Source: Lampris incognitus (lineage: Eukaryota > Chordata > Actinopteri > Lampriformes > Lampridae). Taken from it: a stretch of DNA of 64,000 nt. The stretch is from positions 62,753,506-62,817,505 of the forward strand of contig NC_079216.1 in NCBI RefSeq assembly GCF_029633865.1. The letters are read 5' to 3'. The notes below the pieces were generated by a model. It did not search any database and was not told the DNA's origin. It saw nothing but the letters and a program-made list of their open reading frames with translations. The position numbers were made by a program, and so were the translations under genes. This document shows positions 1 to 40,031 of the stretch, in pieces. Each line of letters starts with the position of its first letter. Position 1 is the stretch's first letter.

Positions 1-2015
1 CAGACCACCAGACTATCCTGGCAGTCACTGGGCGGCAGGCGAGGAGACACCCTGGACAGACCGCCAGACTATCCCAGCAGTCACTGGGCGGCAGGCGAGG
101 AGACACCCTGGACAGACCGCCAGACTATCCCGGCAGTCACTGGGCGGCAGGCGGGGAGACACCCTGGACAGACCGCCAGACTATCCCGGCAGTCACTGAG
201 CGGCAGGCGAGGAGACACCCTGGACAGGCCGCCAGACTATCCCGGCAGTCACTGGGCGGCAGGCGAGGAGACACCCTGGACGGACCGCCAGACTATCCCG
301 GCAGTCACTGGGCGGCAGGCGAGGAGACAACCTGGACGGACCGCCAGACTATCCCGGCAGTCACTGGGCAGCAGGCGGGGAGACACCCTGGACAGACCAC
401 CAGACTATCCCGGCAGTCACTGGGCGGCAGGTGAGGAGACACCGTGGACAGGCCGCCAGACTATCCCGGCAGTCACTGGGCGGCAGGTGAGGAGACACCG
501 TGGACAGGCCGCCAGACTATCCTGGCAGTCACTGGGCAGCATGCGGGGAGACACCCTGGACAGGCCGCCAGACTATCCTGGCAGTCACTGGGCAGCATGC
601 GGGGAGACACCCTGGACAGACCGCCAGACTATGCCAGCAGTCACTGGGCAGCATGCGGGGAGACACCCTGGACAGACCACCAGACTATCCTGGCAGTCAC
701 TGGGCGGCAGGCGGGGAGACACCCTGGACAGACCACCAGACTATCCTGGCAGTCACTGGGCGGCAGGCGGGGAGACACCCTGGACAGACCACCAGACTAT
801 CCTGGCAGTCACTGGGCAGCATGCGGGGAGACACCCTGGACAGACCGCCAGACTATGCCAGCAGTCACTGGGCAGCATGCGGGGAGACACCCTGGACAGA
901 CCACCAGACTATCCTGGCAGTCACTGGGCGGCAGGCGGGGAGACACCCTGGACAGACCACCAGACTATCCCGGCAGTCACTGGGCGGCAGGCGAGGAGAC
1001 ACCCTGGACAGACCACCAGACTATCCCGGCAGGCGGGGAGACACCCTGGACAGGCCGCCAGACTATCCCGGCAGTCACTGGGCGGCAGGTGGGGAGACAC
1101 CCTGGACAGACCACCAGACTATCCCGGCAGTCACTGGGCAGCATGCGGGGAGACACCCTGGACAGACCACCAGACTATCCCGGCAGTCACTGGGCGGCAG
1201 GTGGGGAGACACCCTGGACAGACCACCAGACTATCCTGGCAGTCACTGGGCGGCAGGCGGGGAGACACCCTGGACAGACCACCAGACTATCCTGGCAGTC
1301 ACTGGGCGGCAGGTGGGGAGACACCCTGGACAGACCACCAGACTATCCTGGCAGTCACTGGGCAGCAGGCGGGGAGACACCCTGGACAGACCACCAGACT
1401 ATCCCGGCAGTCACTGGGCGGCAGGCGGGGAGACACCCTGGACAGACCACCAGACTATCCCGGCAGTCACTGGGCGGCAGGCGAGGAGACACCCTGGACA
1501 GACCACCAGACTATCCCGGCAGGCGGGGAGACACCCTGGACAGGCCGCCAGACTATCCCGGCAGTCACTGGGCGGCAGGTGGGGAGACACCCTGGACAGA
1601 CCGCCAGACTATCCCGGCAGTCACTGGGCGGCAGGCGAGGAGACACCCTGGACAGACCGCCAGACTATCCTGGCAGTCACTGGGCGGCAGGCGGGGAGAC
1701 ACCCGGGACAGACCACCAGACTATCCGGGCAGTCACTGGGCGGCAGGCGGGGAGACACCGTGGACAGACCGCCAGACTATCCTGGCAGTCACTGGGCGGC
1801 AGGTGGGGAGACACCCTGGACAGACCACCAGACTACCTGGCAGTCACTGGGCGGCAGGCGAGGAGACACCCTGGACAGACCACCAGACTATCCTGGCAGT
1901 CACTGGGCGGCAGGTGGGGAGACACCCTGGACAGACCACCAGACTATCCTGGCAGTCACTGGGCAGCAGGCGAGGAGACACCCTGGACAGACCACCAGAC
2001 TATCCCAGCAGTCAT
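1..2015. repeat. 56-bp minisatellite derived from a SINE fragment
   Basis: About 36 head-to-tail units of 56 bp run from the first base of the window, so the array continues to the left. Units differ mainly at a few sites (cagaccRcc, ggcRgca, gcgRgg). The unit equals about 55 contiguous bases of the dispersed SINE-A family as read on the plus strand near 23045-23100 (ctatcccagcag... to ...ccgccag) plus one base. Because 56 is not a multiple of three and the unit lacks stops, long open frames exist in all three plus-strand frames; these are artefacts of the repeat. Two units near 1021 and 1511 share the same 14-bp internal deletion. Confidence 0.97.
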
Positions 2016-2047
2016 TGGGATACATATTTGTATCCCAATCACTGCTG
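2006..2047. repeat. Hairpin at the right edge of the minisatellite
   Basis: A 19-bp inverted repeat (2006-2024 and 2029-2047) with a 4-base loop and one mismatch. The left arm is the last partial minisatellite unit and the right arm is a reversed copy of it, so the array ends in a fold-back. Confidence 0.85.
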
Positions 2048-2276
2048 CATATTTGTTGCTGCATATTTGTTGAAAATGTGCACCTGTTTGTTTTGATAGA
2101 TGTTTTTTTGTTCGCTTGTTTGTTTGTTTGTTTGTTTGTTTGTTATATTTAACACACATTACTAAAGAGTTCTGGGTGCCCTGCTAATGGTAAGAGTATC
2201 ACGAAGTCAATACATTCTAGGAAATACACAAATCTCAAATCAATTTATGTTTTTCTGCTGGGCTTTCTCCTTGCTG

Positions 2277-6414
<4,138 letters not shown>

Positions 6415-7380
6415 GAGGAGCCGAGGTTCTCGCCTGAATCAAGGCGGCGCCTGGCGTCCCGCGCGCCCGGTTTTTACCTCCCAGGCACTTCAGCTGCAGA
6501 ATGTCGGAAGCCGGTCTGGGGAAAAGGACGGGATCACAATTTGAATCGATTCCCTTTTTTACTTACTCGTGGCCACGGCGTGGCTCCCCGGCAGTGCCCT
6601 TAAGCAGCACGAACAGGCTGCCTGTGGCCGGTGCCACCTGCAGTACGGCTGCAGAGCATTACGCCATTCACGGCTAATGCAACATTCAATTCCGTTCCGT
6701 TTGTTGTCATTAAAAGCAATGTGCAGGGCACGTGTTAGAAATGAGATGACGCGGATAACGTGCGGATCAACCGGAAGTTTAAATCAGACGGTGGTCCAGC
6801 CTGACCGGTCTAAATGCCTCTTCTCAGGCAGCACCATACGGACACGTGCAATAGGAGCCGGAGCAAACCACAGGCGCCTTCATGGATGGCCGAGACAGAC
6901 GGCGCCCCCTCGGTCCCTGCCGGTGCCCCACTCAGCAACCGGACCTCGGATGGAAAAAAAAAGGAAAAGAGCCACGCGCTCAAGTCCCGGACGTCGGTTC
7001 ATCTGGGCCGAGGAGGTGAGGAGGCTACCCAGCTGGCGTCCAAACCTGTGGCGCGTCCGTCCAGTCGAAACGGTCCCCGGTCATTATGTCCCCCTGTCTT
7101 TATTTCTTATACCGAGGTTAAATCTGCTTCTAATTAGCCCCCCCCCCCACCACCCCCCGTCCGGTTTCTCGGGTGACGGACGAGGCGCGCGACTCCGCTC
7201 AGACCGACGGGTGACCGACGCGGACGCTGCGGTCTCGTTACCTGGAGCGGAGGTGCCCGTGCCTCGGTCTCGCGGCTCTGATGGGGCTCCCCTGACTGCG
7301 CGCGCGCGTCTCTCTTCATTCCGTTACACCGGCGCGGGCGGCGGGTTGAGTGACAGGCAGCGGACCGACGTCCAGTAGCA
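6415..7380 (-). promoter_or_regulatory. Upstream region of the GnRH receptor, CpG-rich
   Basis: This stretch flanks the receptor start codon and becomes rich in CpG from about 6780 to 7380. It would hold the 5' UTR and promoter, but I see no certain TATA box or transcription start. An upstream untranslated exon cannot be excluded. Confidence 0.35.
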
Positions 7381-9734: not shown

Positions 9735-10380
9735 GGGATGATCAGGGACACCTATAAAAATAGCAGAACATTAAAATTATGCATAAATATACAAAATATG
9801 CATTTTTCTAAAAATGGCTAAAAACCACTTTTCTCGGCATTTCAGGTGATTCTGAGCATCTTTGATTTTTTTCACCTATATAAAAAAAAATTTCTGGGAC
9901 TTAGAAATGTTTTGGCATTATGCAAAATATATGCATTTTTGCAAAAATGCACTGATGATCCTCTTTTTTTTGGGAGGTGGTAGGTATTGTTCCAGAGAGG
10001 ACCAGAAAAATAGCAGAAAATTAAAATAATTATGCATAATTATGCATAAATATGCAAAATATGCATTTTCTAAAAATAGCTAAAAAACCACTTTTCTCGA
10101 CATTTCAGATGATTCTGAGCATCTTTGATTTTTTCACCTATAACATTTTTTTTCCAGGACTTAGAAATATTTTGGCATTATGCAAAATAAGTGCATTTCT
10201 GCAAAAATGCACTTATGATCCTCTTTTTTTTTTGGAGGTGGTAGGTATTGTTCCAGAGAGGACCAGAAAAATAGCAGAAAATTAAAATAATTATAATAAT
10301 TATTCATAACTATGCAAAATATGTATTTTCTAAAAATGGCTGAAAACCACTTTTCTCGGCATTTCAGATGATCCTGAGCA
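9735..10380. repeat. Tandem repeat, period about 262 bp, roughly 2.4 copies
   Basis: The segment ctaaaaatggctaaaaacc recurs near 9810, 10072 and 10332, and ttgttccagagaggaccag near 9988 and 10248. Each unit holds clusters of tatgcat and atgcaaaat and a poly-T run. It is strongly AT-rich against GC-rich flanks. Confidence 0.9.
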
Positions 10381-10384
10381 TTTG

Positions 10385-13942: not shown

Positions 13943-14294
13943 GGGCGGCGCGGTGGTCGGCGCGGTCGCCTCACAGCAAGAAGGTCCTGGGTTCGAGCCC
14001 CCGGGGTAGTCCAACCTTGGGGGGGGTCATCCCGGGTCATCCTCGGTGTGGAGTTTGCATGTTCTCCCCGTGTCTGTGTGGGTTTCCTCCGGGGGCTCCG
14101 GTCTCCTCCCACAGTCCAAAGACCTGTAGGTCAGGTGACTCGGCCCTACTAAATTGCCCCTAGGTATGATGGCCTAGCGGCCTGTCCAGGTTGCCCCCCC
14201 CTCCCCCCCACCGCCGCCCAATGACTGCTGGGATAGGCTCCAGCATCCCTGAGAGCAGGATAAGCGGTTGGGATAATGGATGGATGGATGGATG
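13943..14294 (+). repeat. SINE-A, near full length
   Basis: A tRNA-derived SINE. The head carries a B-box-like gggttcgagcc after cctcacagcaagaaggtcc, followed by a tRNA-unrelated body (gtttgcatgttctccccgtg, tccaaagacctgtagg, agcctatcccagca read in reverse) and a terminal (GGAT)n. This copy defines the plus orientation used for the family. Confidence 0.9.
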
Positions 14295-15375: not shown

Positions 15376-15394
15376 CAATAGCCAGTAATCTATA

Positions 15395-15978
15395 CTCCAT
15401 AATCTATACTCTATAATTTATACTCTATAATCTATACTCCATAATCTATACTTTATATTCTATACTCCATAATCTATACTCTATAATTTATACTCTATAA
15501 TCTATCATTTATACTCTATAATCTATAACCTATACTCTATAATTTATACTCTACAATTTATACTCCATAATTTATACTCTATAATCTATACTCTATAATT
15601 TATACTCTATAATTTATACTCCATAATCTATACTCTATAAATTATACTCTATAATCTATACTCTATAATCTATACTCCATAATCTATACTCTACAATTTA
15701 TACTCTATAATCTATCATTTATACTCTATAATCTATACTCTATGATTTATACTCTACAATTTATACTCCATAATTTATACTCTATAATTTATACTCTATA
15801 ATCTATACTCTATAATTTATACTCTATAATTTATACTCCATAATCTATACTCTATAATCTATACTCTATAATTTATACGTTATAATCTATACTCTATAAT
15901 GTATACTCTATAATCTATACTCTATAATCTATACTTTATACTCTATAATTTATACTCTATAATCTATACTCTATAATC
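15395..15978. repeat. AT-rich minisatellite (ctctataatctata unit)
   Basis: About 40 degenerate units of 14-15 bp of the form tactctataatYtata. It is nearly free of G on the plus strand, which gives strong strand asymmetry. Confidence 0.97.
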
Positions 15979-17078
15979 TCGTCGGCAGAACAGTGCTTGG
16001 TAGATTCACCGAGACAGAACCCAGCCCACCATGCAGTACAGATTGTGAAGCACTCAATTTAAAGGCAACTAATGTCCTCGACAATATAATGAATACAGAG
16101 TCGATATAAAGTTAAACAACAGAATAATTTTGAAATACCTCTTAGAAGTGTTGAGATTTTGATTTGATTGACTTTATTGTCCATCTCAGTGGAAATTTGT
16201 CTTTTGCTTCTCCCAAGGTGCAGCAAAGGTACATACACTACACATAGCATAACACAACATGAAAATCATACAAAATATACAACCCATCAGTGGCTGCTGG
16301 TGCTAGAAAGCTTTGGGGGGGGCAGTTTACCTTGGTGTAGCACACCTGACAGCTGCTTTAATGTCCACACAGTCACAGAGTTATTAAGGAGGACAACGTA
16401 GCCTATAGATTTTATTAGGGTTCGGAGACGGTGGATGATTGACAGTCGAGACGAGGCGTCGTGGTGGGTGTGAACATGACTGACAGCCATGAGAATTGTG
16501 CAGCCGGATCCTAAATGAACGGCGGCTTTTATTTTGACACGGAAGGAAGTTGAGTTTGGCGGTTGTCGTGCATAGGCCACGAAGAAGAAGAAAAAATCAT
16601 TCACGAAGAAGAAGAAAGATTAAGGGGCGCTCAAGGGGAGGGGCGGAGGCTGGCCGTCTACAGGGACGCCGCTGTGTGACGTCTTGAGTTGATGCAGTTG
16701 GAGGACGGTAGGGGGAGCTAGAGGACAAGATAGGATGTAAGCGACTCTAAGAGGGGAGAAGGAGTGTGACGTGAGTCGTTCAAGCGAAGAAGCGTGTGCT
16801 AACAGACGCGTGTCTTGGACTGGTCCCTTAGCAACACAACACACTGGTGGGCTAATTAATCCTTTTTTGTCATTGGAATTAATTGGTGGTTAGCGTTACT
16901 GTTATAATTAATTGCTAGTTAGCATCCTGGTATTCGGCTAATGTTAAAACGGTGCGCTAATCACTCAGATTGCCTTGCTGTGTAGTGTATCTCACGTGTA
17001 TTCCAGTTGAGGTCAGCCATGTTGTGTGCAATTAAGTGCAGTGTGTATGGTTATGTATCGATTTAATCTGGTAAAGGA

Positions 17079-19996: not shown

Positions 19997-20420
19997 GTGT
20001 CCGGGTGGCATGGCGGTCTATTCCGTTGCCTACCAACACGGGGATCGCCGGTTCGAAACCCGGTGTTACCTCCGGCTTGGTCGGGCGTCCCTGCAGACAC
20101 AATTGGCCGTGTCTGCGGGTGGGAAGCCAGATATGGGTATGTGTCCTGATCGCTGCACTAGCCCCTCTTCTGGTCGGTGGGGGTGGGCCTGTTCGGGGGG
20201 AGGGGACTGGGGGGGAATAGCGTGATCCTCCCTCACACGGCGTCCCCCTGGTGAAACTCCTCACTGTCAGGTGAAAAGAAGTGGCTGGCGACGCCCCATG
20301 TGTCGGAGGAAGCATGTGGTAGGCTGCAGCCCTCCCTGGATTGGCAGAGGGGGTGGAACAGTGACCGGGATGGCTTGGAAGAGTGGGGTAATTGGCGGGT
20401 ACAAATAGGTAGAAAAGGTG
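19997..20420 (+). repeat. SINE-C (tRNA-derived), near full length
   Basis: The head has a tRNA-like A box (gtggcatggcgg) and B box (ggttcgaaacc). The body includes cagacacaattggccgtg, actgtcaggtgaaaag and tgtcggaggaagcatg. A second copy in reverse orientation lies at 32470-32905. Confidence 0.85.
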
Positions 20421-20779: not shown

Positions 20780-20903
20780 AGGGTTAAAATTCACTCTGTC
20801 TCTGCCCCTGGTCCCCGGGTGTGCTGCAGCTGCCCACTGTTCCTAGCTACACAGCTAGGATGGGTTAAATGCAGAGAGGAATTTCCCCACGGGGATCAAT
20901 ATT
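20780..20903 (+). repeat. SINE-B 3' part, left of a nested SINE-A
   Basis: Contains ctgcccactgttcctagc, tacacagctaggatggg and ttccccacggggatcaat, the 3' end of SINE-B. The tail continues after the nested element at 21263-21302. Confidence 0.82.
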
Positions 20904-21262
20904 CCCATCCATCCATTATCCGAGCCACTTATCCTGCTCTCAGGGTCGCGGGGGATGCCGGAGGCTATCCCAGCATTCATTGGGCGGCAGATGGGGAGAC
21001 AACCTGGACAGGCCACCAGTCCATCACAGGGCCGACACATTCACACCTAGGGACAATTTAGTACGGCCGATTCACCTGACCTACATGTCTTTGGACTGTG
21101 GGAGGAAACCGGAGCCCCCGGAGGAAACCCACGCAGACACGGGGAGAACATGCAAACTCCACACAGAGGACGACCCGGGACGACCCCCAAGGTTGGACTA
21201 CCCCAGGGCTCGAACCCAGGACCTTCTTGCTGTGAGGCGACCATGCGCCACCGCGCCGCCCG
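20904..21262 (-). repeat. SINE-A inserted into a SINE-B tail
   Basis: A full-length SINE-A in minus orientation, from ccatccatccattatccg to the tRNA-like head (gaacccaggaccttcttgc, tgtgaggcgaccatgcgcc). The flanks gggatcaatat and gggattaatat form an 11-bp target duplication with one change. Confidence 0.88.
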
Positions 21263-21309
21263 GGATTAATATAGTATATCAAAATCCAAAAAAAAAAAAA
21301 AGTTCCCCC

Positions 21310-21763
21310 TTACAGTCGCAGCAAAACTGTGAGAAGTGCTTTATAGGGTGGTGAAATGGGAACAGTAACCTCATTTGAGGAAATAAAAGTCCTTGTGTTC
21401 GATATCATACCATTGTGTGGCCAAAGCATCAATGGCACAATAATGTCTGAGGTCAAATTTATGCACCGGTTGCAATCGAAAAGACGGCCTTTAAAATGAT
21501 CATAAATTAACCCGTCATCTGGTTTTCCTCCACTTACGCTCCGCCCTGCGGCAATCGCTTTCAACACTCGCTGTCTGTTTAGTCTCACACGGGATTATTT
21601 TGTAGCTGTTTCCACGTTAACTGGTGCAACAGAACTCAGCTGTGCTCTTCATTTTGCTCAGAAATGGTCAACCTGTACCGGGGGATGGACAGAAAGGACG
21701 CTGCTGTCCAGGAAACGTCGTCAGCATTTAATTTGCATGTTGCAGGGGTCAGAAACAGCGCTG
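21310..21763. other. No recognised feature
   Basis: Unique-looking sequence with no recognisable gene. Confidence 0.5.
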
Positions 21764-21780
21764 TCAGTCACAGATTGTAT

Positions 21781-22483
21781 CTTCTTCTTTCGGCTTGTTC
21801 CCTGTTTCTCGGGGTCGCCGCAGCGGATTTGATAGTTTCCATTGGTACCCTGTGAGGGTACAGCGCCAATCCCAGATAGCAAAATTGCTGTGGCCTGGAC
21901 CCGTCCCACACCAACACTTCATCCGTCCCACATACCGCGTAGATCGATGACACTTTGGTGGTCCGCTCCTGTTTGCCAGAGCTGGGCCAGAACCAAGCCA
22001 TAGCAATGCCGCATGTGCCATATATTTGCCAAAGGTGGCCATATTTGTTTTGTGATATTTGGGCCATATTCACCATTTACCACACGGGCCACTTCAGGGT
22101 CACATCCAGATTACATGTTACCGAGAGGGCCGCAGCTTTTGCCAAAAGAGGCCCACATTTGATTTGGCATGTTTGGGCCATATTTGCTATTATACACGTG
22201 GGCCACTTCAGGCTCACATCCATTTTGTCAGGGCCAAAAGAAGGCCATCAGTGCCGCATCATTGCCTGAAGTGGCCCACATCCGGATGCTATCTGGGATG
22301 GCGGTCGTTGTTAACCCGGGCCTTGACCGATCCGGTATGGTTTTGTCAATCCGCATAATGATTTGGCAAAATTTTCCATCGGATGCCCTCCCTGACACGA
22401 CCACTAACCCCATGGACGGGGGCACAGGTAAAGCGCTGGATGCCATCCCAGTATTCATGGACTTGCACCCGTGCCTGTCGCCA
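21781..22483. mobile_element. Inserted repeat with 17-bp flanking duplication
   Basis: The flanks are tcagtcacagattgtat (21764-21780) and tcagtaacagattgtat (22484-22500), one mismatch in 17, as expected after retroposition. The outer sequence (ctcggggtcgccgcagcgg, gttttgtcaatccgcataat) resembles a common teleost repeat. A second element is nested inside at 21871-22297. Confidence 0.7.
21871..22297. mobile_element. Non-coding element with cccagatagc TIRs
   Basis: The termini cccagatagcaa and tgctatctggg are inverted repeats. The interior has imperfect tandem units around gggccatatt and gggccacttcagg. No coding capacity and no clear target duplication were seen. Confidence 0.65.
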
Positions 22484-22978
22484 TCAGTAACAGATTGTAT
22501 ATCTTTGAAAAATTAAAAAGAAACAAACAACTGTTTACCTTGTGCCGACAGGTCCGAGGTACTCCCTCGTGTGGGAGTATCAGGATAGGCTAAAGGTCAA
22601 ATCAAAATTACACCGAGTTCTCTCACCCATTGAACACTGCCGCGGTTGAAAAGGTTGAGGTGGTGGTGCTTTCAAAAGAAATGGAAAAACCTTTCAAGAC
22701 GAGGTGGACAGATTTTTCTCTTCATTGCTTTCTATACGTGTAGTCCCTCTCCCAAACAGCCCCCTGGCTGCAGCCCAGCTCTTGTTTCCACACTTAGGGT
22801 GCACCTAAAGCACACCAGTACACGTCCTCCCTTATTCTCGTCCTCATTTATGGAGGTTTTCCATCTACCGAGAGTCCTCGAGCATTAAGGAGACCCAACG
22901 TGTGCCCATGTTTTCAAGCAGGTTCCCTGACATACCGTCCAACAACCGCTCAAGCCCGCGAAATCTAACAGGGTTGTC

Positions 22979-23319
22979 TATCCATTATTATCCATTATCC
23001 GAACCGCTTATCCTGCTCTCAGGGTTGCGGGGATGCTGGAGCCTATCCCAGCAGTCATTGGGCGGCAGGCGGGGAGACACCCTGGACAGGCCGCCAGTCC
23101 ATCACAGCCAGTCCATCACACCTAGAGACAATTTAGTGCGGCCGATTCACCTGATCCACATGTCTTTGGACTGTGGGAGGAAACCCACACAGACACGGGG
23201 AGAACATGCAAAGAGGACGACCCGGGACGACTCCCCAAGGTTGGACTACCCCGGGGCTTGAACCCAGGACCTTCTTGCTGTGAGGCGACTGCACTAACCA
23301 TTGCGCCACCGTGCCGCCC
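22979..23319 (-). repeat. SINE-A, near full length
   Basis: Runs from tccattatccgaaccgc through the 55-bp block that matches the minisatellite unit (23042-23096) to the tRNA-like head ending gcgccaccgtgccgccc. Confidence 0.9.
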
Positions 23320-23324
23320 TCAAG

Positions 23325-25205
23325 TGTTAGCTTTTACAAGCAAATTCTATCCAAAGGGTCCGAACCCTTAAGTGCTTATGACTTATGAGCATATTTTGAA
23401 TACTGCAAGGAAATAAGTGGGCTACTTTAACTAAGCTGTACGGTTTATGAGGGGATCGTCTATATGTGAAGGTTAAAATGTCCCATAACGATCATGTGGT
23501 CACGGTGTGGTTGGATTGACCTGAATGATAAGTAGCATCAGAGAGAAGTCTTGGAAAGACATGGGGCTGTTTTTAGAGGATGTGTGCAGTCAAACTTGCA
23601 GTATGGAGAGGAGTTACATAAATGTGGTAAAATTGCTCAATGACTGTTATGACTAGCTGTCATGATAGCTAGAGGATGCCAGGGTCTTACCGAAAGGACT
23701 ATGTGCTGCATGCGAGACATTAACAACAACAACAACAACAGCAAGACATAAATTACAAACATATGCAACATTTGAATGAAGGCACGGCACCAACTATTCT
23801 AGCAGTTCTAGGTAGGGAAATATAAAAACGAAGCGACAAGTGCAAAATTGGTACAGCGGTCCATAAAGTTTGCCTTGCATTTGTCCCCAAAATATTCACT
23901 GGGGGGGCTTTGAAGAGATATGTAAAAGAGGGTAAAGTCACCCAAACCACCTGCTGGGGTCCAGCCCCATCATGTCAAAAGATGAGTATGATGAGTGAGT
24001 GCTGACACCTGTCTGTGCTGAAGTGGTGACACCTGTCTGTGCTGAAGTGGAGAGTTAGAATATGGTAATTAGTTAGGATGTGAGAAAAATTTTAAAACCC
24101 CCCCCATGTATTTATTTATTTAGTTGCAAGAGCCTGATGGCAGCAGGTGCACATAGCATGCAGAGAAAACGGATCTGGCTTTACTGCAGACGTGTCTGCA
24201 GAGCAGCTCAGAGACCGGGGGCCTGCCGTTGGCCAGGGTAGCTGCTAATTCTGCAGTTTCCACTTTTGACTTTCAAGTTCTCGAACCATGAGATAAAAGA
24301 AAACATCACAATAAACTCCGCGAAGGACTCGTAAGAACGAAGCAAAATAAACCTCAAATGTCTACAGCTTTTAAGAAAAACTGATGCTGCTGCCTTTCTT
24401 TCTTTTTTTTCCAGATCTTGAAAGAAAAATAATCGGGTGCGGATGCTTCAGGTAACAACCGGTTATAAATATATTATCTCTGACCAATGTTTTGAGAAAA
24501 TCCACATGAATAGGCTGAGAACAGTTGCAATTTGTCAGTTTTCGCTGTGCAGTTGTGCATGCAAAACGTGTTGGGACGGATGCCTGTCTGACATTTGTCA
24601 CGATCGGTAACAAACGGAGCATGAAACAAGAGAAGGATCTGAGCAGGGTACGGCAACCGAGCATCAAGGCCCGGTTGTTGGAACGAAGCCATATCACGAA
24701 TGCTTCAGGGGAGCAGAACCACTGTGGGGAGAATTCTGCATCACAACTGACAAATGCATGCAGTAAAATGAAGAGAAATGCAAGTGGGGGAAAGATAAAT
24801 AAACACCACAATGCATCGATCTGTATTGAGTTTGTTAAGGGCAAACAGATGGTAACATTAATGTACCTCTCCATCCACAAATGGATAACACAACCCACAG
24901 ATCCGTGTTGATGTGCGAAGAAGTAGAAACGTACATGTCTCTCCATCCACAAATAAATGATGAGTTACTTATGTTACGTAAACCATCATATAGACATGTG
25001 TTGGGGAGGACATATGGAGTGGACCCTGTGGCAGGAGATCTTTAGCACTATCTTTAGAACGTACTATTACATGATAGACAGAAAGAGAGAGAGGGAGTGA
25101 GAGAGGGAGAGAGAGCACTCAAGCACCATCAGGCATTCATCTAACTTGAGGTCATAACATAGCTGGATTGTAATATTTAATTATATTTTTCCATTTATAT
25201 TTCTA
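23325..25205. other. No recognised gene; short direct repeats
   Basis: A 24-bp unit tgacacctgtctgtgctgaag occurs twice in tandem at about 24003-24050, and ctctccatccacaaa occurs twice near 24867 and 24939. A 193-codon open frame on the minus strand (24952-24371) has no recognisable domain and I do not accept it as a gene. Confidence 0.5.
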
Positions 25206-26994: not shown

Positions 26995-27490
26995 TTCGTT
27001 TAATGGCTGGGAGAGCCTGGTTTGCTGCGTCCTGTGGGCCCAGGGACCACGGCCCTGCCTAGAGCTGCACCCAAGAGGAAACAACAAGGCGGTCTAGCGG
27101 CGGCCTCGCCTAGTGCAGAGTTTTTGTCTGCGTTTGTGTTGTCGTGTGGAGTGCGGGGGAGGTGTGTCGATGGTGTCTGGCTGGGAGAGCTGGTGTTGGG
27201 TCGGCTAAGGGAGCCTGGTCTGCTGCATCCTGTGGACCCCAGGGACCACGGCCCTGCCCGGAGCTGTGCCCAAAGAGGAAACACCGAGGCGGTCTGGTGG
27301 CGGCCTCGCCTAGTGCAGAGTTTTTGTCTGCGTTTGTGTTGTCATGTGGAGTGCGGGGGAGGTATGTCGAAGGTGTCTGGCTGGGAGAGCTGGTGTTGGG
27401 TCGGCTAAGGGAGCCTGGTCTGCTGCATCCTGTGGACCCCAGGGACCACGGCCCTGCCCGGAGCTGTGCCCAAAGAGGAAACACCAAGGG
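26995..27490 (+). repeat. 200-bp tandem triplication
   Basis: The segment starting ctgggagagctggtgttgg repeats at 27181 and 27381 (period 200 bp). A shortened third copy starts at about 27005. Copies two and three are nearly identical, so the last duplication is recent. Open frames of about 125 codons run through the units but no domain is recognised. Confidence 0.92.
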
Positions 27491-27499
27491 CGGTGTGAC

Positions 27500-32469: not shown

Positions 32470-32905
32470 AATATAGATATATTTTTTATTTCCCCCCCTT
32501 TTTCTCCCCAATTGTAGCCGTCCCGGTCTCTGCTCCACCCCCTCTGCCGACCCGGGGAGGGTTGCAGGCTACCCCACGCCTCCTCCCATACATGTGGAGT
32601 CGCCAGTCGCTTCTTTTCACCTGACAGTGAGGGGTTTCACCAGGGGGGCGTAGCGCTTGGGAGGATCACGCCATTCCCCCCAGTTCCCCCTACCGTCCCC
32701 GAACAGGCGCCCCGACCGACCAGAGGAGGCGCTAGTGCAGCGACCGGGACACACACCCACATCCGGCTTCCCACCCGCAGACACGGCCAATTGTGTCTGT
32801 AGGGACGCCCCGACCGAGCCGGAGGTAACACGGGGATTCGAACCAGCAGCCCCCTGTTGGTAGGCAACGGAATAGACCGCCACGCCACCTGGACGCCTAG
32901 TTTCA
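32470..32905 (-). repeat. SINE-C, near full length, reverse orientation
   Basis: Reads from the T/C-rich 3' end (ctccccaattgtagccgtcc) to the tRNA-like head (ggtaggcaacggaatagacc, gccacgccacctggac). Same family as 19997-20420. Confidence 0.86.
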
Positions 32906-35640: not shown

Positions 35641-35832
35641 TGCATCACCACAATCAAATCTGCGTTTCCCCCTAAGTGCCACTGTCATCACTTTGGTGAC
35701 TAGTGATGAAGAGGAAGCCCATCCTGCGGAAGATGTCCCCCCCCCCTCGTGAATCTAGAATTACACAAGGAAGGAATCTGTGTGGACTATGATGGGTCAA
35801 ATGCACGAGATTATCACGTAACACCATTTAGC

Positions 35833-36176
35833 ACGGTCGCCTCACAGCAACAAGGTCCTGGGTTCGAGCCCCGGGGTAGTCCAACCTTGGAGGTCGTCCC
35901 GGGTCGTCCTCTGTGTGGAGTTTGCATGTTCTCCCCGTGTCTGTGTGGGTTTCCTCCGGGGGCTCCGGTTTTCTCCAACAGTCCAAAGACATGTAGGTCA
36001 GGTGAATCGGCCCTACTAAATTGCCCCTTGGTGTGTGTGTGGTGGGGCGCCTGTGTGATGGCCTGGCAGCCTGTCCAGGGTGTCTCCCCGCCTGCCACCC
36101 AGTGACTGCTGGGATAGGCTACAGCACCCCGCGACCCTGGGAGCAGGATAAGCGGTTTGGATAATGGATGGATGGA
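35833..36176 (+). repeat. SINE-A, near full length
   Basis: The head is slightly truncated (cacggtcgcctcacagc), followed by B-box gggttcgagcc, the body, and terminal (GGAT)n. Confidence 0.9.
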
Positions 36177-39301: not shown

Positions 39302-40031
39302 CAGTGTTTCTCAACCGGGGGTCCGCGGACCCCTAGTGGTCCGTGGTGTAATTGCAAGGGGTCCGTGAAAATAAAATATCTTTTAAAAAAAAGATCCTAT
39401 GACATTTATAGAAATAGGATTATTTTACTCAAATGTGACTGAGACCTTTATCTACCTAAACTATAAAGGGTAACAGGACTTTTTTCTCTAATTACATCTG
39501 TTTCACAAGTGTAATTTATTGTATTTTAATAAGAGATCTCGCTCCCGTTTGCATTGTTAAAAGTTACTGCATAAAAATTCTGTTGTTACATATATCTGAA
39601 AGTTACTGAATACATATTCTGTTTTGTCACATATATCTGAAAGTTACTGCATAAGAATTCTGTTTTGTCACATATATCTGAAAGTTACTGAATACATATT
39701 CTGTTTTGTCACATATATCTGAAAGTTACTGAATACATATTCTGTTTTGTTACATATATCTGAAAGTTACTGCATAAGAATTCTGTGTTGTTACATATAT
39801 CTGAAAGTTACTGCATAAGAATTCTGTTTTGTTAACTATATCTAAGTTACAACTGAAAGCTCTTATTTTTGCCCCAAAGAGTGAATAAATGCTATAATGC
39901 AATTTAAAATGCAGTTTCTACTGTTTCTATCAAATTGCAACCCTCCTCCCCCAAGATCAGGTGGAGGGGTCCTCAGGGTAGATCAAAAATACGCAGGGGG
40001 TCCAGGACCCCAAAAAGGTTGAGACCCACTG
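39302..40031. mobile_element. Non-autonomous hAT element with perfect 8-bp TSD
   Basis: The ends cagtgtttctcaacc and ggttgagacccactg are inverted repeats. The flanks gcctaggc (39294-39301) and gcctaggc (40032-40039) are identical. The element is 730 bp, has no transposase and carries an internal 41-bp tandem repeat. The outermost bases resemble those of the MITE at 8602-8846. Confidence 0.93.
39559..39850. repeat. 41-bp tandem repeat inside the hAT element
   Basis: About seven units of gaaagttactgaatacat... in two variants (gaatacatattc and gcataagaattc). Confidence 0.95.

Follow-up and report, generated by a model that had tools for sequence, protein, structure and literature searches.

The window analysed here, a stretch of 64,000 nucleotides (C9:62753506-62817505; genome searched: 1.48 Gb in 537 contigs), starts within a tandem array that is followed by three exons of a receptor gene of the rhodopsin family (7tm_1) on the minus strand (2277-6438); the first of these exons matches the GnRH receptor among solved structures (E 8e-56), and the array lies approximately 260 bp beyond the open-frame end of the last one. 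An open frame on the plus strand (4605-5129) would, by its motif RLRWLGHV, resemble a LINE reverse transcriptase in its C-terminal portion. Further tandem arrays are present at 15386-15979 (units of 14 bp), 39560-39850 (41 bp), 27013-27494 (200 bp) and 9775-10381 (260 bp). Besides the array at the left end, ten other copies or fragments of one SINE family were found in the window by blastn of its copy SINE-A (see Table 1 for selected copies), and the A/B-box pattern of a Pol III promoter gave seven matches in the window versus 0.33 expected; a tRNA match in the SINE head was obtained neither by ARAGORN (window) nor by Rfam (20850-23400). The family is perhaps V-SINE or an Ac1- or DANA-like fish SINE, a name that we assume as a lead only. 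The likeness consists in a tRNA-like head with A and B boxes, a body and a tail of short repeats, as outlined in parts of the published description (PMC6887750). A second family with A/B-box-like spacing (TGGCRTGGCGGTCTATTCCG...), which is probably another tRNA-derived SINE, occurs at 20006-20060 (plus strand) and 32834-32887 (minus strand).

Table 1. Positions (window coordinates) of the tandem array, its variant units, the direct repeats at the unit ends and selected SINE copies.
Feature	Position	Strand	Evidence and remarks
Minisatellite array of 56-bp units	1..2019, plus 44 bases leftward beyond the window	+	Tandem Repeats Finder, blastn, unit cutting
42-bp variant unit, first; 14-bp deletion between GCAG repeats	1016..1057	+	blastn, unit cutting
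42-bp variant unit, second; 490 bp after the first	1506..1547	+	blastn, unit cutting
Terminal partial unit, 20 bases, CTATCCCAGCAGTCATTGGG	2000..2019	+	followed by non-SINE DNA
SINE-A, dispersed copy of the parent family	22980..23330	-	blastn; tail at 22980, head near 23330
A-box/B-box-like Pol III promoter in the SINE-A head	23254..23308	-	pattern search
Imperfect direct repeat at the unit ends, left member CTATCCCAG	23043..23051	+	read directly
Imperfect direct repeat, right member CCATCACAG, exactly 56 bp further on	23099..23107	+	read directly
SINE copy, SINE-A family	20911..21261	-	blastn; A/B boxes 21206-21250
SINE copy, SINE-A family, orientation opposite to SINE-A	35828..36169	+	blastn
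SINE copy, SINE-A family, orientation opposite to SINE-A	13944..14281	+	blastn

Tandem Repeats Finder reported a period of 56 and 36.6 copies for the array (window 1-2019). Cutting at the motif CCAGACTA, with the left flank (L021) included, yielded 37 complete units (34 of 56 bp, two of 42 bp, one of 55 bp) and the terminal stub; the total length is about 2.06 kb. The original prediction (1..2015) had recognised the array correctly, the limits being 2019 on the right and, on the left, 44 bases beyond the window. In the plus-strand orientation given here the unit reads CTATCCC...CCAGA, opposite to the direction of SINE transcription. At two of its positions the stub has A and T instead of the G and C of most or all full units. 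An exact search with a 26-base piece gave no match in the viral and none in the prokaryote collection. Two open frames of 553 codons cross the array (435-2152, plus strand); the GC-rich repeat lacks stops there, and the frames are not regarded as genes.

The blastn comparison of SINE-A with the window matched the full units at 84-88% identity and the two short units at 90% (E 2e-20 to 3e-13), and the terminal stub was matched as well (E 1e-4). Compared with a SINE consensus that was built from 21 non-array copies of the window and of fetched loci (four array-bearing copies excluded; the sample is biased, many source loci having been picked for their likeness to the array), the unit corresponds to 56 contiguous SINE bases (consensus positions 0-55), 3 of which are different in the array consensus. 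The unit had been described as 55 bases of SINE-A plus one extra base; this proved mistaken, the supposed extra A being the native SINE position 55, which is polymorphic among the 21 copies (A in 10, G in 6, T in 5) and occupied by T in SINE-A. Since CTATCCCAG and CCATCACAG stand exactly 56 bp apart in SINE-A, the duplication has brought together a pair of imperfect direct repeats. With the plain consensus, exact homology at the window junction is limited to 1 base, a point against a step that uses microhomology; position 57 is T in 4 of the 21 copies, and the right member then starts with CTATC, which gives 5 bases. SINE-A itself contains a perfect 14-bp tandem duplication (GCCAGTCCATCACA; 23093-23120) where the window unit has its right breakpoint. 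Slippage driven by hairpins was considered and dropped, because neither the unit nor the SINE segment folds better than dinucleotide shuffles.

At the left edge (L021), a SINE 3' tail (ATCCATCCATTATCC...) passes unbroken into the first unit; the array is thus located inside that SINE copy. At the right edge it stops mid-unit, with non-SINE DNA beyond. The source copies that had been proposed to persist in the same window are present as members of the family, the direct parent being the array-bearing SINE copy itself. A genome-wide search for the window junction returned 52 matches, 32 of them at the window locus and 20 as isolated singles elsewhere. This search, suggested by the original prediction, found the junction repeated at the window locus only; given this and its length, the array is a single-locus minisatellite rather than a satellite, a term that the original prediction had used besides minisatellite, its tandem origin from the SINE being upheld.

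The window array is not unique: the same SINE segment has made tandem arrays repeatedly. A 17-base core of the segment (GGGGAGACACCCTGGAC) occurs 26,234 times in the genome, and the first list of genome matches already showed tandem matches on C22, C6, C1 and C16. Searching for two exact copies of the core with 13-43 bases between them produced 152 matches, and the reversed control pattern none; two narrower searches supplemented the matches listed. Grouping of matches within a few kilobases resulted in at least 24 tandem loci, a count that excludes about 13 matches with spacings of 44 or 60 bp. Seven of these loci, of which C13, C16 and C26 hold two each and C24 one, entered the count by position alone. 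Further arrays lie beyond the reach of the pattern (C22, 50 bp; C1, 68 bp; C16:3405227, 63 bp). The direction proposed originally, from a dispersed retroposon to a tandem array, is clear from these numbers of dispersed cores and tandem loci and from the position of the array inside a SINE copy.

Twenty loci were read, the window included, and in 19 of these the SINE 3' part adjoins the array (in L024, the 3' side adjoins a run of N). Both the 3' and the 5' part of the SINE flank the array in ten loci (L023, L064, L067, L070, L071, L072, L074, L076, L077, L078); in nine others the 3' part is accompanied by little or no 5' part (window, L022, L025, L065, L066, L068, L069, L073, L075). The arrays range in size from about two units (L025, L069, L070, L077) to the 37 of the window. 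The SINE copy of L067, which holds a 60-bp array of 17 units, contains in its body also a 24-bp array of about 12 units (3035-3320).

Three control cores of the same SINE were searched with the same design: the tail core (17,291 copies) gave 35 matches at 2 loci, the body core (21,924 copies) 6 matches at 4 loci, and the head core (11,414 copies) 16 matches at 4 loci. One of the two tail-derived loci is a 54-bp array (C6:1012616-1014306). Tandem arrays are thus born along the whole SINE and are several-fold commoner per copy in the hot segment, less clearly so in comparison with the head: at least 24 loci per 26,234 hot cores versus 10 per 50,629 pooled control cores correspond to an odds ratio of 4.6 (P = 3e-5; core counts include the repeated copies within arrays), and the excess was significant against the tail (P = 4e-4) and the body core (P = 9e-4), but not against the head core alone (P = 0.067).

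We consider it likely that the minisatellite arose where it now stands, by growth of an internal segment on the 3' side of a single copy of this abundant fish SINE. According to this scenario, a SINE copy that is now devoid of its 5' part would have settled downstream of the GnRH-receptor gene, about 260 bp from the last coding exon; the 56 bp between the imperfect direct repeats CTATCCCAG and CYATCACAG would then have been duplicated head to tail, presumably by a DNA event using microhomology (slippage at a stalled fork or microhomology-mediated break repair), and the repeat would have expanded and been partly homogenised in blocks of several units, possibly by slippage or unequal exchange. 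The same route would have been taken from the same SINE segment, with other junctions, at two dozen or more other loci.

The use of microhomology is suggested by the junctions, which could be placed in 18 of the 20 loci read (L025, with a mutated repeat, and L069, with a 3-base filler, were left out). Exact microhomology averaged 2.9 bases at these 18 junctions versus 0.83 at 1,070 breakpoint pairs of the same segment (reached in 0 of 20,000 resamples), a comparison weakened by the placement of junctions and templates by hand after the loci had been read. The mean was 2.33 with the unmodified consensus for all 18 junctions (0 of 100,000 resamples) and 1.93 with recurrent junctions counted once (15 junctions, P = 0.0006); scoring L069 as 0 lowers the 2.9 to about 2.7. 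Two junctions speak against the use of microhomology, that of L066, with a score of 0, and that of L069, with its filler.

Short homologies are equally compatible with template jumping, and the first duplication could have occurred during retrotransposition: using short homologies, reverse transcriptase would have moved back to a stretch of the SINE RNA that it had already copied, and the insert would have arrived as a dimer or longer, sometimes 5'-truncated inside a later unit. This alternative appears unlikely to us, although it accommodates the four of the 20 arrays read (window, L022, L024, L065) that end mid-unit with no SINE past the right breakpoint of the unit; in these, duplication may have preceded insertion, or a later deletion may have removed the rest. 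The search for target-site duplications (two loci scored against shuffles; seven loci without statistics, the left flank being found for four) gave TATCAAT on both sides of L022, which would agree with insertion of a preformed repeat, though 10% of shuffles reach the same; CAACTTAAT was seen on both sides of the SINE of L023 (by eye, without statistics), and around the window array no convincing target-site duplication was found. The ten arrays that are situated between SINE 3' and 5' parts, on the other hand, argue against duplication on the RNA template, as do the later growth in blocks, clearly a DNA-level process, and the distribution of the arrays along the contigs.

Of the 24 counted loci, 15 are no more than 5.2 Mb away from a contig end (expectation per locus 0.159, P = 3e-7), a threshold that was picked after the positions had been seen; a threshold-free test of relative position against uniformity gave P = 2e-7, with the lengths of C13, C24 and C25 estimated from rank. 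The fifteen do not include the window array, which is 7.0 Mb away from its contig end. Among the control loci, 4 of 10 are within 5.2 Mb (P = 0.07) and 8 of 10 within 10 Mb. At the end of C1, the hot core is barely denser than in the genome as a whole (18.8 versus 17.7 per Mb), with 13.6 versus 11.7 for the tail, 17.4 versus 14.8 for the body and a denser head core (11.9 versus 7.7); as this is the one contig end at which density was checked, SINE density is only partly excluded as the cause of the clustering. The clustering at the ends leans towards DNA-level processes rather than the insertion step.

Growth at the DNA level is visible within the window array. Adjacent full units differ on average at 2.87 of 56 bases, compared with 2.96 to 4.4 for all other spacings. 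A 544-bp stretch recurs, at least 97% identical, after 490 bp, which is also the distance between the two 42-bp variant units, and a 312-bp stretch recurs at 224 bp; both are block duplications, as slippage or unequal exchange would generate them, and suggest that the array is unstable. The 14-bp deletion of the 42-bp units is also found in L066 and in a SINE copy of L024. The array most likely behaves as a neutral variable-number repeat, judging from one genome, and no function is proposed.

It is far less probable that a single tandem SINE arose once, was spread by retroposition or segmental duplication and drifted afterwards. In favour of such a spread, some units recur among the loci read: a 21-bp unit, cut at a 5-base CAGGC repeat, in L068, L074 and L075, and a 44-bp unit in L023 and L070. 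The arrays as a whole, however, comprise about 20 unit lengths between 18 and 68 bp (a few could be doubles of shorter ones) with differing junctions, and the window junction is arrayed at the window locus only. In addition, comparison of 600 bases per side of the 20 loci revealed matches only among L070, L074, L075, L076 and L078 (43-387 bases at 80-96% identity; offsets and orientations vary between them, as would those of a dispersed repeat) and no sign of a common duplicated region. That the satellite came first and the SINE took its segment from it, the reversal named alongside the original prediction, is the least credible reading, for which no support was found: it fits neither the 26,234 dispersed cores versus a few dozen array loci, nor the differing units that each match the SINE, nor the SINE parts on both sides of half of the arrays read, and an old, widely shared satellite of fixed unit was not seen in the searches.

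Such births have parallels in other animals, SINE-derived tandem repeats being already known from reptiles, human and mouse; the useful part here is the recurrence on one template. The study of SINE-derived satellites of squamates (sSats) reports a longer end unit that extends to the SINE terminus, independent variants and a subtelomeric preference (PMC10702118). The present arrays resemble the sSats in that their units derive from part of a SINE (contiguous here, 56 bases with 3 differences), and the end unit of the window array runs on to the SINE terminus, i.e. the 3' tail in L021; the subtelomeric preference may have a counterpart in the 15 of 24 loci close to a contig end, with SINE density controlled at one end only. 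In contrast, the sSats can reach up to 1000 units with one variant at many loci, whereas each locus read here has its own junction apart from few recurrences, the units are shorter, and other SINE families and other animals are concerned. The words "microhomology" and "junction" are absent from the main text of that article, whose authors regard the restriction of sSats to squamates as uncertain (PMC10702118).

Expansion from within SINEs is likewise exemplified, in a review, by a VNTR family of the mouse that goes back to SINE B1 (Bois et al. 1998) and by human Alu-associated minisatellites, and microhomology-mediated joining is put forward there as a proposed mechanism (PMC9659126; repeated in a passage of PMC12628747). 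The mouse B1 unit is given there as a hexamer, (GGCAGA)n (PMC9659126); the present units measure 18-68 bp and come from a single segment on the 3' side of a fish SINE. Among fishes, satellites with SINE-derived parts are described for Harttia catfish, as complex mixes of parts of several elements (PMC11955569); they share the SINE-derived sequence with the present tandem repeats, which consist of one internal SINE segment repeated in place. The main text of a paper on a killifish minisatellite makes no mention of SINEs (PMC2688266). Among the top-ranked open-access literature, judged by titles and the beginnings of abstracts, no account of minisatellites born repeatedly from one fish SINE segment was recognised.

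The 3'-side segment of the SINE might, as a tentative proposal that we rate at somewhat less than even, be an intrinsic hot spot of tandem duplication, the thousands of dispersed copies serving as so many trials and microhomology at short direct repeats, together with a subterminal location on the chromosome, deciding which copies become minisatellites; if so, the first step of minisatellite birth would be directly measurable in a vertebrate. The start of a minisatellite is usually hard to see, the ancestral sequence having been lost. In the present case thousands of copies of the ancestor, a SINE, still exist, and stages from near-dimers to about 37 units are present, most with a readable junction; in consequence, the first duplication becomes open to statistics on breakpoints, microhomology and chromosome position. 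The loci constitute a natural experiment on minisatellite birth, in which many births can be compared side by side, and provide a fish parallel to the SINE-derived satellites of reptiles.
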